IMG/VR virus record: IMGVR_UViG_3300035181_001149
Coordinates: 1-49,899 of that record
From: a virus
Reading direction: 5' to 3' (one strand)
DNA: 49,899 nucleotides
Position numbers and translations under genes: made by a program. A model generated the notes under the pieces. It was given only the letters and a program-made list of their open reading frames with translations, did not search any database and was not told the DNA's origin. Numbering within the stretch: position 1 is the first letter of the stretch; every line of letters begins with the position of its first letter. Of the stretch, positions 2,630 to 43,967 are shown one piece after another.

Positions 2630-3031
2630 TTATTTAGTTAATAATTGAAACGTAATTAATAATTGAGCGTAATGTAGTAATTGGTCGAATCCAACACTTA
2701 CAAAGAAGTTGTGTATATCTCCCTTGTTATATAGGTATGTATTTAGTCGGCTTGTTAAGTAATCAGTAATCCAATGGCATACGAATGTTATTGTTGGAAA
2801 TAAAAAAACAAAACAAACACCTTTAGTTAATGTATGATAAAAAATAATATAAGCTCCGTAAAAACAAGAAAAAGCAAACCAAACTAACGTATAAGTTAAT
2901 ACGTGCATAGTAAGGTAATAATTAGACTTACTCTTATTTGTAGCTTGTTCATGTGTTTGTAATACAAAGTCAGCAAACCAATGTATCAAAATAATACTAA
3001 ATAGTATGTATATGTTTATTTCTGTTTTCAT
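2630..3031 (-). CDS. DUF3307 family membrane protein
   Basis: 133 residues with four likely membrane helices. It carries the DUF3307 pattern: IHWFADFVLQTHEQATNKSK at the N-terminus, then HWITDYLTSRLNTYLY, then HNFFVSVGFDQLLHYAQLL. This family is common in phages and plasmids of Bacteroidetes and its role is unknown. The conserved polar residues (His, Asp, Gln) inside membrane segments suggest an enzyme or a metal-binding site in the membrane; that is inference. Confidence 0.88.
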   Translation of the reverse strand: MKTEINIYILFSIILIHWFADFVLQTHEQATNKSKSNYYLTMHVLTYTLVWFAFSCFYGAYIIFYHTLTKGVCFVFLFPTITFVCHWITDYLTSRLNTYLYNKGDIHNFFVSVGFDQLLHYAQLLITFQLLTK

Positions 3032-3084
3032 TTTTACTTGTTTTAATTAAACCCGCCAACATTTAATATGTAATATGAGTAGGT

Positions 3085-4050
3085 TTATTTTAATGTATTT
3101 AATTTATTCCATTTCCTCTCTAAAAAATCAACATTATGTATGTAGTTCTTTAGTATTTTTAAATCTTTTGTTGTGCATATTTCTATTTTTGAAGTTACTT
3201 TCTTGGTTGTTTTCACTTTACTACTTATATTATAAAACTCTTTTAATTTATCTGATATTAATTGTAATGTTTTCAACCAATTAATATGAATTTCTACTCT
3301 TAAATTTAACCAACTTGATTTTTTGTCTTTACCACTATGTGTTTCCCATATACAACCATCACCATCTATAAGTCCTATAAAAAAAGGTAATAATAAATCT
3401 TTTGTTAAAAAAATATTCAAATCAGGTGGTGTGTATGTTTTAGGGCTATTAATATTTAATATTGATAACCATTTTTCTCCAAATTTTTTATCTTGTATTC
3501 TTAATATACATGAGTGAAACTCTTTTTTAGTGTAACTGTTTATGTATTTTTTTTCATAAATTTTACATCCTAAAATATCAGATATTTTTTTAAGGTGTGA
3601 TTTATCTTTTATGCTTAATCCAATAATAACCTCCCCTTTATTAGTTATATGACCATCAGCCATTATAAATCCCCACCAATATGCACTCCTTTCATTTAAT
3701 GTATCAAGAAATTTTAATGAGCCAATTCTTTTTCTTTGAGCTTCTGACTTGACACCTAACTCAATTGCTTTTTTAGTTAACATGTTATAACTTCTATTTG
3801 GAATAGCAGCTAACAAATCTTTCATTGTAGAATTTTTCCAATGAAATTTAAGTAGCTCTATTTCTTTGTCAGTCCATCTATTCCAATTAGAAGAATGCAG
3901 TCCAAGTTTTTTTGCTTTATCACCTATGGAGTTTAGTGTTCTACCCTTAATGTATTTTGCACATTCATTAGATTCTCCTGTTGGATAATATTTCTTTAAA
4001 AAACAAATATCTTCTTCTGACCACTTTTTTTTATTATTAGTCCCTTTCAT
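3085..4050 (-). CDS. Free-standing LAGLIDADG homing endonuclease with N-terminal DNA-binding repeats
   Basis: 321 residues. Two LAGLIDADG helices are visible: WWGFIMADG at 125-133 and FFIGLIDGDG at 223-232, each ending in the catalytic acidic residue, so one chain holds both half-sites. Two SANT/Myb-like or HTH repeats precede them (WSEEDICFLKKYYP at 10-23, WTDKEIELLKFHW at 59-71). It lies between phage genes and has its own -7 box (4059-4066), as mobile endonuclease genes often do. Not inside a visible intron; probably spreads by cutting relatives that lack it. Confidence 0.93.
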   Translation of the reverse strand: MKGTNNKKKWSEEDICFLKKYYPTGESNECAKYIKGRTLNSIGDKAKKLGLHSSNWNRWTDKEIELLKFHWKNSTMKDLLAAIPNRSYNMLTKKAIELGVKSEAQRKRIGSLKFLDTLNERSAYWWGFIMADGHITNKGEVIIGLSIKDKSHLKKISDILGCKIYEKKYINSYTKKEFHSCILRIQDKKFGEKWLSILNINSPKTYTPPDLNIFLTKDLLLPFFIGLIDGDGCIWETHSGKDKKSSWLNLRVEIHINWLKTLQLISDKLKEFYNISSKVKTTKKVTSKIEICTTKDLKILKNYIHNVDFLERKWNKLNTLK

Positions 4051-4098: not shown

Positions 4099-5622
4099 TT
4101 AAGCATTTATCCTTTCACGTATCTCAGAAAGTTTATGGTCAATTAAAAGTTTTCCATCTTTGAAAACAGGTTTAAGTTCACAGTTCATAATTTCATCCCA
4201 AGTAGCTTGGTCTTTTAAATAAAAATCACCATTTCCATCTTTAAAAACAGCAGTTAAACCTTTAGCTGATTTTTTCTCTCCACTATCAGTAATAGGGTCT
4301 TTAAATATTTCTCTACCAATTCCATCAACTTCACAAAATGTAGATTTAACTGCAATTCCGAGCGAATCCCTGCTTTTTACGTTCATCGTGTAAGAACCCA
4401 CCCCCATAACTATATTAGTAGAAGCGAATCCTTTAGTCTTTAATCTTTGGCAAATTTCTTCTGCTCTTTCTAAGGTTATCGCATCCCCGTATATAGCCCC
4501 AATATGGTTATCTAATACTTTGTAACCTTGTTCGTTTACTATACCGCCAAATACATCCCAAAGTAGTTCTATAACACCTTTGTGTTCGGATTCAGAAATG
4601 TATTTAGGTTTACCTACAACTCCATTTTCCCATTCATAATATCCACCAAAAATACCATCTTCATTGTCAACAAATCCCTTACCACAAATAATATCACAAG
4701 GATTACCGCTATCAGGACGTATAACTAATTTACCTTCACGAGCTAATATTTTATCTTTTAAAGTAGGTAGGTACTCTGTACATACTTTCCAAAGGTCAAA
4801 GCTGTCGCTAACAACAGATATTATTCCTGTTGGGAACTGATTTAATAATCTTGCGAAAGCAACAATCTCATCTTCTTTACCATAAGATGTCATAACGCTG
4901 TGTTCTGATGCAGGCACACTACTACCAACTAATTCTTTTTCAATGTTAGCGTTATAATATTCCTCTAACATCAAAACGGCAGGTATGGTATCTGTTCCTG
5001 TGAATGATAATAGCCATCCCGCTTGATTTAAAGATGTTTCGATAGAGCTTCTACCTCGCATACTAAAATCATGTCCTTGCCATTGAACAAAATCTTTTGT
5101 ACCAGTAGTTTCAATAGCGTGTTTATCTAATACATCTCTAAATTGTTTCCCAATAGTTGCATTAGTAGTTAAATCCCAAATAACTGTACTCATTTGAGTT
5201 TCTAAGAAATTAACTAACCAAGCGTGTTCAGGGTGTGTATTGTAAATTACATAATACGGAACTCTTGCTTTTATCAAAGAACCTTCGGGTAATGCAAGTA
5301 TCTCCAATGGCATGTAACCTAATTGATGTAATTTTTCAATATGAGTGGTATCAATATCACAAAAACTAAAGTTTTTATGAAACCTTTTATATTCTTTTAA
5401 TACATCTTCTAATGGAATATTAAAGAATAATTCATTCCATTGTTTTATCAGATATTCTTTTAAATAATATTGTAATCCAAACCATACTGATTTTTCTAAT
5501 CCTTCCATTCTCTTGTAGCTTCTTGGTGTCATATTAGAAACTAATTTGGTCATACCTTCAGGATACATTTTAAAGTGAAACTGTTTGTAGCTATCTGATA
5601 GCAATATTGGTAAAATTTTCAT
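4099..5622 (-). CDS. NAMPT-family enzyme: nicotinamide phosphoribosyltransferase or nicotinamide ADP-ribose transferase (Namat)
   Basis: 507 residues, near the 491 of human NAMPT, and colinear with it. Active-site residues are kept: Tyr12 in DSYK (human Tyr18), Phe186 and Arg189 in FSMRG (Phe193, Arg196), Asp211 in FTGTD (Asp219), His241 in ASEHS (His247), Arg302 and Asp304 in IRPDSG (Arg311, Asp313), Asp380 in YGD (Asp354), Arg418 in SRDS (Arg392). NAMPT joins nicotinamide to PRPP giving NMN; the phage homologue Namat joins nicotinamide to ADP-ribose pyrophosphate giving NAD+ directly. The PRPP-synthetase-like gene at 6801-7721 in the same run suggests the two act together. Motifs alone do not tell NAMPT from Namat. 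No NMN adenylyltransferase is visible nearby, which mildly favours the Namat route. Confidence 0.93.
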   Translation of the reverse strand: MKILPILLSDSYKQFHFKMYPEGMTKLVSNMTPRSYKRMEGLEKSVWFGLQYYLKEYLIKQWNELFFNIPLEDVLKEYKRFHKNFSFCDIDTTHIEKLHQLGYMPLEILALPEGSLIKARVPYYVIYNTHPEHAWLVNFLETQMSTVIWDLTTNATIGKQFRDVLDKHAIETTGTKDFVQWQGHDFSMRGRSSIETSLNQAGWLLSFTGTDTIPAVLMLEEYYNANIEKELVGSSVPASEHSVMTSYGKEDEIVAFARLLNQFPTGIISVVSDSFDLWKVCTEYLPTLKDKILAREGKLVIRPDSGNPCDIICGKGFVDNEDGIFGGYYEWENGVVGKPKYISESEHKGVIELLWDVFGGIVNEQGYKVLDNHIGAIYGDAITLERAEEICQRLKTKGFASTNIVMGVGSYTMNVKSRDSLGIAVKSTFCEVDGIGREIFKDPITDSGEKKSAKGLTAVFKDGNGDFYLKDQATWDEIMNCELKPVFKDGKLLIDHKLSEIRERINA

Positions 5623-16205: not shown

Positions 16206-16213
16206 TTATTTTT
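16206..16213. repeat. 8-bp direct repeat, left flank of inserted element
   Basis: TTATTTTT immediately outside the left terminal inverted repeat; repeated at 17668-17675 immediately outside the right one. Fits an 8-bp target-site duplication, though the AT-rich sequence raises the chance of coincidence. Confidence 0.6.
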
Positions 16214-16240
16214 GGTAACTATATACTTATTCACCCTAAA
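16214..16240 (+). repeat. Left 27-bp terminal inverted repeat
   Basis: Begins GGTAACTATATACTTATTCA and is the exact reverse complement of 17641-17667. Matching stops at once on both the outer and the inner side, as expected for true element ends. It contains the stop codon of the 75-aa gene. Confidence 0.9.
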
Positions 16241-16463
16241 AAGGACTTTCCTGTTCAGGTATTAATTCTAATTCAGGGCGTAATGTATTTACGGACTGAA
16301 ATTTTCCTTTTATGCAATATCCGACACTACGACCACAAAGCACCTTTTTTATCTCTCTGCCAGTTCGAGAATTAAAACACTTTCCGTCCTTTGTCCACTT
16401 ATAGTTAGTGGCAAATCGGAGTTGATGTGTTAGTACGTAACTATTTGATATTGAGATATTCAT
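16236..16463 (-). CDS. 75-aa protein inside the inserted element (NUMOD/AP2-like small domain)
   Basis: Contains YKWTKDGKCFNSRTGREIKK and GYCIKGKFQSVNTLRPELE, the pattern of a small beta-domain found in Bacteroidetes phage and mobile-element proteins (a 'dGkvfn..TGreik' unit). Such domains often bind DNA next to homing nucleases. The stop lies in the left terminal repeat, so the gene travels with the element. It could aid recognition of the element ends or regulate the methyltransferase; both are guesses. Confidence 0.65.
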   Translation of the reverse strand: MNISISNSYVLTHQLRFATNYKWTKDGKCFNSRTGREIKKVLCGRSVGYCIKGKFQSVNTLRPELELIPEQESPF

Positions 16464-16476
16464 GCTTTAGTGTTTA

Positions 16477-16497
16477 TGCGACAAGCCCGTAGTTATG
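16477..16497 (-). other. attC-like half-site beyond the 3' end of the methyltransferase gene
   Basis: The plus-strand sequence TGCG..AAGCCC..GTTATG repeats, with gaps, the right arm (17613-17635) of the palindrome at 17563-17634: TGCG, AAGCCC and GTTATG are shared in the same order. I could not find a partner arm nearby, so it is at best a partial site. The surrounding 16464-16553 holds no gene. Confidence 0.4.
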
Positions 16498-16553
16498 TTC
16501 AATTTGTTTTGTTTAAAATTTAAAAGCCCACGCTCTCCTTAATTTTTTCAAAA

Positions 16554-17504
16554 TTATAAAAGGTTTTGTTCCGTTTCATCTATTCGCTTTTTCGCTTTGT
16601 TAAAGTATTTTTCGTCTTTCTCAATCCCAATAAAATTCCTATTCAGTTTCTTACAAGCAACTCCGCAAGTTCCACTTCCCATTGTATTGTCAAGCACCGT
16701 TTCATTTTCGTTTGAGTATGTGCTGACAATAAATTCCATCAACGGTAATGGCTTTTGTGTCGGGTACAGTCCATTTTCTCTATCGTATCTCAAAATGCTT
16801 TTCGGATAACCTGTTTTTGTTTGCTTGTAGTTATCTCTTTTGCTTTCACTTGATAAATGCCCTAAACTTCCTGCCTTACCTTTATTTGAGCAAATAATAT
16901 CAGTATCATTCAAATCCAAATTGTATGTAATCCTTTTTACTTTGCTCAAAATTTCTTCATATTTATTTTCAATTCCAAATAGGTTGCAAATTTTATTCCA
17001 TTGCTCTGCTGTCGGTAATTGTGAGCCATTCAGTTTGTTCGTTACCCAACCTGTCATTCCTCCTGTTCTTGATAGTTCCAATTTTGACACATCAATTTTT
17101 TTCAAGTTCAGTCGCTTCATATTTTCAATCATAATATCAGCAAATTCCATATCGGGAGTTTCATTACAAAACACAGATATAGTTTCGTGTATCTTCAATG
17201 GTTGGTAGTTCACTAATTGAAAGTTCCCTGCATTGTTCTTCTCCCAAATCCAATCGTATTTATACCAACCCAAATTACTTGTCCGTAGCAATGATGAAAA
17301 CGGTTCACTACCAAATAATACAATCACTCCCTTGTCCTTTATTATTCGTTTGTATTGCTCCCAAAGTTTGTCAAATGGAATTATCGTGTCCCAAGCACAA
17401 GCAGTCGTTCCGTAAGGCAAATCACAGCATATAAAGTCAATACTCTTTTCGGGTATCTCATTCATCAATTCCAAAGTATCACCTAAATATAAATCCTGTT
17501 TCAT
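16554..17504 (-). CDS. Beta-class DNA (N4-cytosine or N6-adenine) methyltransferase
   Basis: 316 residues. Catalytic motif IV is DLPYG at 28-32 and the AdoMet-binding motif I is DNTMGSGT at 272-279 near the C-terminus, with GLYPTQKPLPLMEFI between; this order defines the beta class. A variable middle (about 120-235) would hold the target-recognition part, larger than in the second methyltransferase at 29865-30701. No cognate restriction gene lies nearby, so it is a solitary methylase, likely protecting the element or phage DNA from restriction. It is inside the 16214-17667 element and is less AT-rich than its neighbours. Confidence 0.92.
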   Translation of the reverse strand: MKQDLYLGDTLELMNEIPEKSIDFICCDLPYGTTACAWDTIIPFDKLWEQYKRIIKDKGVIVLFGSEPFSSLLRTSNLGWYKYDWIWEKNNAGNFQLVNYQPLKIHETISVFCNETPDMEFADIMIENMKRLNLKKIDVSKLELSRTGGMTGWVTNKLNGSQLPTAEQWNKICNLFGIENKYEEILSKVKRITYNLDLNDTDIICSNKGKAGSLGHLSSESKRDNYKQTKTGYPKSILRYDRENGLYPTQKPLPLMEFIVSTYSNENETVLDNTMGSGTCGVACKKLNRNFIGIEKDEKYFNKAKKRIDETEQNLL

Positions 17505-17562
17505 AATTCTAAAATAAAATCCAACGCACCCCTCTCAAAAACCTTTTTTAAAAAACCTAAAT

Positions 17563-17634
17563 ATAACATGGGCTTTAACGCAATTTTCCCTCCCACAAGG
17601 CAACAGCACAACTGCGTAAAGCCCTGTCCGTTAT
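17563..17634 (-). other. attC-like imperfect palindrome upstream of the methyltransferase
   Basis: Arms 17563-17582 and 17613-17634 pair as ATAAC..GGGCTTT.ACGCA against its complement with a few unpaired bases on one side, and GTTATG at the right end. Length about 72 bases with bulged arms is the shape of an integron attC site. In the gene's direction the order is attC-like, methyltransferase, half-site, as in a gene cassette. Could also be an ordinary structured spacer. Confidence 0.42.
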
Positions 17635-17640
17635 GTCTCA

Positions 17641-17667
17641 TTTAGGGTGAATAAGTATATAGTTACC
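17641..17667 (-). repeat. Right 27-bp terminal inverted repeat
   Basis: Exact reverse complement of 16214-16240. It abuts the stop codon of the gene 17668-17997. Confidence 0.9.
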
Positions 17668-17675
17668 TTATTTTT
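17668..17675. repeat. 8-bp direct repeat, right flank of inserted element
   Basis: TTATTTTT, same as 16206-16213. It includes the stop codon of the leftward gene 17668-17997, so insertion left that gene complete. Confidence 0.6.
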
Positions 17676-17997
17676 TTTGTTCCTTAAAATACCTATCCCA
17701 TTGTTCGTGTGTCTTTGTTTTGAATAACTCTAAATCTTTATTTATAAACTCAATTCTTGTTGGCTTACTTACATTTTTTCTAACATCATACATTTGACAA
17801 AACCAATCCGTAAAACCTACAACATCAAATTCTTCTACTTCTTCAATAGATACTTCGTTAAGCTCTGATAACCTTTGATTAATTAGTTTTTTTAGTTTAG
17901 CAGGTATCTTCCAATGATTAAATGCGGTAAGTGTATCCCTTAACTCATCTAATAATTCCTGTGCCTGTATTTTTAATTTATCTTCGCTGTTGTTCAT
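17668..17997 (-). CDS. Unknown 109-aa protein
   Basis: Helical and charged; ends HEQWDRYFKEQKK. Overlaps the preceding gene by four bases (ATGA), so translationally coupled. Its stop is the insertion point of the methyltransferase element. Function unknown. Confidence 0.72.
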   Translation of the reverse strand: MNNSEDKLKIQAQELLDELRDTLTAFNHWKIPAKLKKLINQRLSELNEVSIEEVEEFDVVGFTDWFCQMYDVRKNVSKPTRIEFINKDLELFKTKTHEQWDRYFKEQKK

Positions 17998-42941: not shown

Positions 42942-43967
42942 TTACTCCTCATGTTTTAAAAGAAACTCAGGTGATATAACCTTTAATATCACTCTACCTA
43001 TAATGTCGTTTATTTCAACTAATGGTACTATAACAATGCCTTCGCGTTTTGTATCGTAAAGCATAGATTTACCGTTTGATAATGCAACCAAATCATTAAT
43101 GTCGTTGCTTAAAACAAGTTTATCGTTTATTACAGGCACTCTTTCAAGTTTCAGGTCATTAGTTACACGAACAAAGGCATCGTAATCTAAATACCTGTGC
43201 TTGTCAATATTAAATATGTTATACAGGAATACTTTTTTACCCTTTATTTTATACTTGTTTTTCTTAATACCCTCTCCGACTATTTCACCCTGCATGGATA
43301 TATTCTTAGGTATATTAACTGACTGGTTAGAGCGTAGTATGCTCTCAATATTTAGTTTTCTTGCCATTTGCCAATGAATAGAATCTGATGACTCTAAATA
43401 ATCAACCTCTTTTGAACAAACACCGAATACATCATTTTTTAAGTAGAAAGTAATACTTTCGCCATCGAGCTTTTCCGAAGCAACACAAATTATTCCTTGA
43501 TATTTATCTAAAACTGGCTGCATTGTCTGTACACGATAAATATCCGATTTAGGTATATCTGATGGCATATATCCTTTTGCCGCCCCTAATAGCTCGTTAG
43601 GTAGCTTATCTTCGTGCTTGGTAACACGCATAGCAGTAGTAACATCCTGACCGATAATCATATCTTCGGGTAATAAACCAAAGTGTTCTACAATATCAAT
43701 AGGAAAGCAGATGCCTTGTGATACCTGACCACGCATCCTAACAGTACGGATACGCATTGTACCACTTGTTATTTTTTTAACTCCTTCAAATAATTCAATA
43801 TCAGGAAGAAGTGAGTCTATTTCACAGTAAACTACTGCGCTACCAACATTGAACTCACCTTTTCTTACTACTACCTGCCACCCCAAAATAGTGGCAACTT
43901 CAATAGCCTGTGCATCTTTGATTGGATTTAAAGCTGTAATTTTTTGTATGCTTGCTAAATTTCTCAT
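42942..43967 (-). CDS. RNA ligase, DRB0094 (Rnl5) family
   Basis: 341 residues. N-terminal OB-like part (MRNLASIQKITALNPIKDAQ, GWQVVVRKGEFNVGSAVVYC) precedes the ligase domain. Motif I is EKLDGES with nucleotidyl-lysine Lys166, motif IV is QGEIVGEGI at 226-234, then EGIVI and motif V VILKVISPEFLLK at the C-terminus. This order, OB part first, is the DRB0094 type. Joins RNA ends with ATP. In phages it may repair tRNAs cut by host anticodon nucleases. Confidence 0.93.
   Translation of the reverse strand: MRNLASIQKITALNPIKDAQAIEVATILGWQVVVRKGEFNVGSAVVYCEIDSLLPDIELFEGVKKITSGTMRIRTVRMRGQVSQGICFPIDIVEHFGLLPEDMIIGQDVTTAMRVTKHEDKLPNELLGAAKGYMPSDIPKSDIYRVQTMQPVLDKYQGIICVASEKLDGESITFYLKNDVFGVCSKEVDYLESSDSIHWQMARKLNIESILRSNQSVNIPKNISMQGEIVGEGIKKNKYKIKGKKVFLYNIFNIDKHRYLDYDAFVRVTNDLKLERVPVINDKLVLSNDINDLVALSNGKSMLYDTKREGIVIVPLVEINDIIGRVILKVISPEFLLKHEE

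Follow-up and report, generated by a model that had tools for sequence, protein, structure and literature searches.

A probable IS1595-type mobile cassette carrying a DNA methyltransferase gene in an environmental phage

A repeat-bounded segment and its genes

The window (the whole stretch of viral DNA analysed here, 49,899 nucleotides) contains an element of 1454 bp, at positions 16214-17667, whose terminal arms are complementary at 27 of 27 positions, the match stopping at 27, as the first-pass annotation had described. The element and its immediate surroundings comprise the following features.

16206..16213, no strand: left copy of the 8-bp target duplication TTATTTTT, exact
16214..16240, plus strand: left terminal inverted repeat, 27 bp
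16236..16463, minus strand: 75-aa open reading frame (ORF), stop codon inside the left repeat
16554..17504, minus strand: N6/N4 DNA methyltransferase, 316 aa (PF01555, 6.2e-27, 95.4 bits against a cut-off of 26.7)
17641..17667, minus strand: right terminal inverted repeat, 27 bp
17668..17675, no strand: right copy of the target duplication TTATTTTT, its first three bases being the stop codon of the 109-aa neighbour
17668-17997, minus strand: 109-aa neighbour gene, stop codon within the right duplication copy

Shuffled windows (n = 100) gave an expectation of 0 inverted-arm pairs within 3 mismatches, and the chance of the 8-bp flank match is about 5e-5 to 1e-4 at the composition of the window. 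The shuffles, together with the flank duplications found across end pairs (see below), rule out a chance inverted repeat. Since the duplication contains the stop codon of the 109-aa neighbour, the insertion disrupts no gene. The element is also compositionally distinct, in line with the earlier description: its GC content is 0.351, against a mean of 0.298 and a maximum of 0.342 outside, so that all 911 equally long sampled windows lie lower. Joining the flanks in silico yields a stop codon, an A/T-rich spacer, the leader AACTAAAAAAACAAACC and the ATG of a 404-aa gene. The restored gene junction that had been proposed thus stands in its stop codon, spacer and leader, and its description of that leader as standard is partly supported, because exact AACTAAAAAAACAAACC recurs at one further place (12115), with looser versions elsewhere. 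Between 16000 and 18100, promoter-like sites (6 against 9.5 expected) and terminator-like sites (0 against 0.8 expected) gave uninformative counts.

The main cargo is the methyltransferase, as had been claimed. In addition to the PF01555 match, it carries a DLPYG motif, located by script, and a C-terminal DNTMGSGT, noted by eye, and its sequence relatives in the PDB include DpnA, CcrM and RsrI. Enzymes of this type recur in phages, with 674 of 50,697 INPHARED records matching (tblastn, 1e-5). No cognate restriction endonuclease was found beside the gene, the other candidate ORF being 75 aa long and without a family match. The likely benefit of the methyltransferase would be protection of phage DNA from host restriction. 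The 75-aa ORF ends in the left arm, as the first-pass annotation had stated; it is a candidate gene, unproven because searches of Pfam, PHROGs and INPHARED (tblastn) matched nothing. Elsewhere, the window phage encodes a nicotinamide phosphoribosyltransferase (4099-5622, minus strand; phrog_448, 4e-179) and an RNA ligase (42942-43967, minus strand; phrog_968, 4.8e-61).

A profile search of the 49.9-kb record found no PF12762 (IS1595) transposase, in agreement with the absence claimed earlier, and the element itself encodes no DDE_Tnp_IS1595 transposase. Therefore, it is described here as an IS1595 derivative and not as an insertion sequence (IS) in its own right.

Viral relatives of the ends and the source of the transposase

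The exact 23-bp end occurs in seven stretches on six contigs of IMG/VR and in none of 84,980 bacterial and archaeal genomes. Degenerate versions of the end, a search that the first-pass annotation had suggested, led to 36 IMG/VR contigs besides the window (records G001-G036). Their insertion sites differ, which excludes a family confined to one phage lineage. Among the resulting 37 records, window included, 17 hold transposase-less pairs (18 distinct elements, spanning 0.3-1.45 kb), 11 hold transposase-bearing pairs and nine hold a single end (L028, L008, L038, L036, L037, L035, L231, L243 and L245). In some of these nine the partner may lie past the contig end; a script seeking it in L037, L036, L028, L035, L038 and L008 found none. 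L228, identical to L226 with the same flanks, was left uncounted, L230 and L234 (the same 2341-bp element) are both within the 29 pairs, and elements of L125-L204 that were found solely through the duplication filter lie outside them. A 30-base end query retrieved no INPHARED phage record at 80% coverage, the best reaching 63%, and the best coverage in plasmids was 73%.

Two isolated ends have peculiar settings. A third, unpaired end lies at 3562-3585 of L031, inside the 970-bp L031 element, and is perhaps a nested or older insertion. The inner sequence of the solo end at 10411-10434 of L028 repeats ACCCTACT inverted, in a hairpin-like manner, beside phage structural-looking genes.

In 11 contigs, a complete pair of ends encloses an IS1595-type transposase gene, one of them truncated (L227). 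One of them, of the kind that the first-pass annotation had advised looking for as an autonomous relative, is the following.

L005/L029, 1297-3222: transposase-bearing element; transposase of 310 aa (PF12762 3.5e-45, PF12760 1.5e-9), duplication TTCTGTAA

The earlier guess that the ends are of IS1595 type is thereby confirmed, the same ends enclosing a PF12762 transposase in these relatives. The ends of L029 (= L005) and L033 score 21-23 of 23, and perfect duplications also flank the transposase-bearing elements of L033, L225, L229, L232 and L241. Within the 11, the PF12762 profile test covered L005/L029 and L033; seven others (L225, L230, L234, L229, L233, L241 and L237, which correspond to L127, L128, L129, L130, L131, L133 and L135, respectively) are tblastn relatives of the L005 transposase at 61-73%, and L232 and L227 were assigned by reading and by blastn, among the matches listed. 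The L033 transposase is 93% identical in protein to that of L005/L029. Among the matches listed, L029 aligns with L033 over 1.2 kb at 83% and over the right-hand 135 bp at 87%; the small ORFs that lie between these stretches differ. IS6-type elements, considered as a candidate on account of their 8-bp duplications, were set aside, as the relatives carry PF12762.

Some transposase-bearing elements also hold passengers. Transposase and a PF01555 methyltransferase occur together in L225 and L229, and transposase and a PAPS-reductase-like protein in L230, while L227 retains just the 129-aa front part of its transposase. These cases make plausible a path from an IS with a passenger, through decay of the transposase, to a cassette. 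Very long, repeat-containing passenger proteins were seen in L232 (3728-7126, 1132 aa), L241 (2976-7307, 1443 aa) and L237 (4518-8783, 1421 aa). Among more distant viral IS1595 elements (L134 3908-6339, L141 3913-7933, L158 492-3011 and L202 3935-8363), the passengers resemble D12, type I (HsdM/S-like) and N4/N6 methyltransferases, on a reading of the translations only.

The tree of IS1595 transposases, built from 68 of 160 loci (a motif filter kept 83, and viral loci after L172 were left out), contains a virus-only clade of nine rows (L125-L130, L132, L133 and L135) with support 100/100. Viral IS1595 transposases overall do not form one clade: the tree has 12 changes, and other viral loci sit among cellular ones.

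Transposases of the host bacteria could also move the cassettes, in which case phages would be mere landing places for host IS1595 derivatives. IS1595-type transposases accompanied by related outer ends (GGTAACTATATAC...) are frequent in genomes of Bacteroidota and of other groups, and no PF12762 match was found in 15 of the 17 records with transposase-less elements, which may be fragments; of the remaining two, G012 has the match in a 98-aa frame and G027 has a full copy. Against a host source stands the exact end, found in viral stretches and in no cellular genome. The looser end was absent from 395 Bacteroidota genomes as well, a weak argument given that about one match would be expected at viral density (a rough estimate with an assumed IMG/VR size). 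Moreover, within the best 80 matches retained, the nearest cellular transposase is 55% identical, whereas nine other viral ones are 61-93% identical and have similar inner end sequences; in cellular ends, the outer GGTAACTATATAC is often common and the inner part is different. We regard a host source as unlikely and favour a transposase supplied by other phages.

Insertion sites, orientation and cargo

Pairs of these ends flank other cargos together with 8-bp duplications, as the first-pass annotation had proposed to check. A perfect 8-bp duplication borders 18 of the 29 end pairs and a 9-bp match none of them. For the transposase-less elements, the duplication is 8/8 in 11 of 18, 7/8 in one (L039) and 1-3 of 8 in six; for the transposase-bearing pairs, it is perfect in seven of 11 and absent in four. 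When left and right flanks of different elements were compared as a control, 3 of 812 pairings matched at 8/8. In the records with more than one end (G008, G012 and G027), the pairing was chosen by the analyst, partly guided by the duplication. Targets are mostly A/T-rich, TTCACAGG in L242 being an exception.

In all 18 elements the cargo shares the strand of its right neighbour, and in 16 of 17 (the exception being L236) that of its left neighbour, neighbours being defined mechanically as ORFs of at least 60 aa. For fifteen of the 18 elements, a neighbouring ORF is no more than 50 bp away, a count that has no control and comes from phages with dense genes. An element edge directly abuts the stop codon of a neighbour in four cases (window, L032, L238 and L227), and four bases separate the two in L027 and L236; the 262-aa replisome gene of L030 ends on a stop codon provided by the left end of the 4394-5388 element.

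This L030 locus provides a comparison with relatives, all 19 of which lack ends within 4 mismatches. In two of them (L259 and L264), the replisome gene directly overlaps a gene for a DnaB-type helicase, whose L030 counterpart is on the far side of the cassette; protein identity to L030 is 59-61% over the front of the replisome protein and 32-34% for the helicase. The remaining 17 have no detectable DnaB homologue as the following gene, which leaves only two relatives informative about the empty site. Gene order in L259 and L264 indicates an empty site for L030 4394-5388 at the level of genes, not of bases. For the RecT-like gene beside L034, the three relative loci are L034's own contig and two others, also end-bearing; as the far flank is not conserved, this is a one-sided empty site only.

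For the window insertion, no empty site and no relative of the window phage were found: the 404-aa neighbour has no relative in the viral contigs, the 109-aa neighbour has none in INPHARED, and among the fetched loci the number of window proteins matched never exceeds two. The elements might accordingly be dead relics, once mobile and since inherited vertically, with the methyltransferase an ordinary phage gene. Several pairs without a duplication and the truncated L227 transposase fit this idea, as does the lack of any transposase-less element repeated at a different site among the fetched loci, where the sole second copy (L228, of L226) sits between identical flanks. It is improbable in view of the intact window ends (27/27) and duplication (8/8), of surroundings that differ between phages, and of a GC content above that of every sampled window. 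We thus retain the reading of a mobile cassette.

Cargos are diverse. DNA methyltransferases of at least five families occupy 10 of the 18 transposase-less elements, and the 18 elements carry the following.

Methyltransferase, PF01555: window, L242
Methyltransferase, PF05869: L027, L236
Methyltransferase, PF02086 (D12): L032
Methyltransferase, PF02384: L224
Methyltransferase, PF00145 (C5): L226
Methyltransferase, phrog_11619: L030 2936-3492, L034
Methyltransferase, phrog_799: L039
PAPS-reductase-like (2/18): L030 4394-5388, L244
Radical SAM (1/18): L240
No known family (5/18): L031 (twice), L235, L238, L239

PHROGs, and not Pfam, where the scores stay under the cut-off, provide the methyltransferase assignments of L027, L030 2936-3492, L034 and L039, as well as the PAPS assignment of L030 4394-5388 and the radical-SAM assignment of L240. 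Methyltransferases account for 10 of 19 cargo proteins (leaving out the 75-aa ORF of the window and a 78-aa ORF at L031 6105-6410), against at least 3 of 131 neighbours within 4 kb (Fisher p 1.9e-8; one overlapping ORF was dropped from 132 neighbours, and one Mom protein, involved in DNA modification, was uncounted). With five of 18 cargos lacking a known family, DNA modification is not the sole cargo.

Among the matches listed, the PAPS-reductase-like element at L030 4394-5388 shares its right-end 70 bp at 95.7% with the D12 methyltransferase element of L032, and its left end matches L008 over 87 bp at 88.5%. As these alignments indicate, the cargo slot is exchanged while the ends are kept.

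The methyltransferase may, alternatively, serve the element itself and not protect the phage, for instance by timing transposition through methylation of the ends. Methylation controls some transposons, such as IS10 and IS50, and methyltransferases are enriched in the present elements. The cargo enzymes, however, belong to several unrelated families that are hardly expected to recognise a common site in the ends, and the elements with PAPS-reductase-like, radical SAM and unassigned cargos do without a methyltransferase, which makes this option quite improbable beside a role in phage protection. An assembly artefact can practically be dismissed, for the contigs are metagenomic but many separate ones show the same anatomy with different duplications.

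Several further arrangements were observed. The L030 phage carries two cassettes, at 2936-3492 (methyltransferase) and 4394-5388 (PAPS-reductase-like), on either side of the replisome gene. A PAPS-reductase-domain cargo recurs at L030 4477-5325, L244 1427-2314, L038 4628-5509 and L230 1813-2814, for which a function in DNA modification or in metabolism is possible. In L242 (3214-4453), a PDDEXK_5 protein adjoins the methyltransferase, possibly forming a transposable restriction-modification pair. The C5-methyltransferase element of L226 (3299-4191) aligns at 78% with a 468-base stretch of L224 that belongs to no cassette recognised there; this gene thus occurs both with ends (L226) and without them (L224).

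Interpretation and comparison with known systems

We consider the window segment to be a mobile insertion cassette without a transposase, belonging to an IS1595-type family in phages, moved in trans and read from a phage operon, with a probability of about 0.82. An IS1595 (DDE_Tnp_IS1595) transposase would be supplied in trans, probably by the virus-only clade on other phages; it would recognise the GGTAACTATATACTTATTCACCC ends and insert the cassette at mostly A/T-rich sites, generating the 8-bp target duplication. Selection would then retain insertions between genes or at their very ends, in the direction of transcription, such that transcription of the phage operon could express whatever occupies the exchangeable cargo slot. 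Here this is a beta-class DNA methyltransferase, and methylation of the phage DNA would block host restriction. The analysis establishes the ends, the duplications, the relatives with a transposase, the variety of cargos and their orientation; mobilisation in trans, the origin of the transposase, expression from the operon and the anti-restriction role follow by inference. The interpretation given in the first-pass annotation is thus supported, most of the checks it proposed having turned out in its favour.

On a wider scale, there is perhaps an even chance that this represents a phage-dedicated gene exchange, in which the virus-only IS1595 clade maintains a pool of single-gene cassettes shared across unrelated phages, enriched for DNA-modification enzymes and inserted at gene ends in operon orientation. 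Anti-restriction genes would then be swapped by transposition and not by homologous recombination. The methyltransferases of phages come from many unrelated families and are patchily distributed; the transposon-cassette route, if true, would explain part of this distribution and predict which genes get swapped. That dozens of environmental viruses carry these ends around differing genes suggests a common pool of hopping genes, with whose help viruses may escape bacterial defences. The ends also offer a handle: whatever gene they enclose in a viromic contig can be taken as a candidate for counter-defence, including cargos without a known family.

Miniature inverted-repeat elements (MITEs) are short and non-autonomous, with inverted ends and a target duplication, whereas mobile insertion cassettes (MICs) carry cargo between IS ends. 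Unlike MITEs, each of the 18 elements described here contains an ORF (78 aa or longer) that runs in the direction of the right neighbour, and the window element has the structure of a MIC, with transposase-less cargo, IS ends and a target duplication. MITEs and MICs are the known IS derivatives without a transposase, and IS with passengers are termed transporter IS (tIS; accessible parts of PMC3129680 and PMC7986276). MICs are IS-related and have no transposase of their own, although some can be activated by the cognate transposase of a related IS (accessible part of PMC3129680); MIC231 of Bacillus cereus, by the titles cited there, belongs to another IS group, IS231, whereas the present elements have IS1595-type ends, reside in phages and carry several kinds of methyltransferase.

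Within the IS1595 family, the tIS tISCpe8 and MTnSag1 carry passenger genes and have 25-bp inverted repeats and 8-bp duplications (accessible part of PMC5704250). The relatives found here likewise combine such ends with PF12762/PF12760 transposases, and passenger genes occur in both. The window element has the 8-bp duplication and ends matching those of transposase-bearing elements; it differs in having no transposase of its own, and the carriers here are phage contigs. Furthermore, tISCpe8 is a lincomycin-resistance element (by a title cited in PMC5704250), in contrast to the cargo seen here, which most often concerns DNA modification. Phage orphan DNA methyltransferases (PF01555; DpnA/CcrM/RsrI-like) belong to the same enzyme family as the window enzyme, whose gene here is the cargo of a transposon end pair.

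Among the titles and abstract openings listed by literature searches, we found no report of phage-borne IS1595 elements or methyltransferase cassettes, and the accessible part of PMC6563490 describes no such element; the IS1595 literature (e.g. Siguier et al. 2009) may describe passenger methyltransferases. As far as these listings go, what seems to be new beside the known systems is a family of this kind in phages, together with the bias in its cargo and its orientation along the operon.
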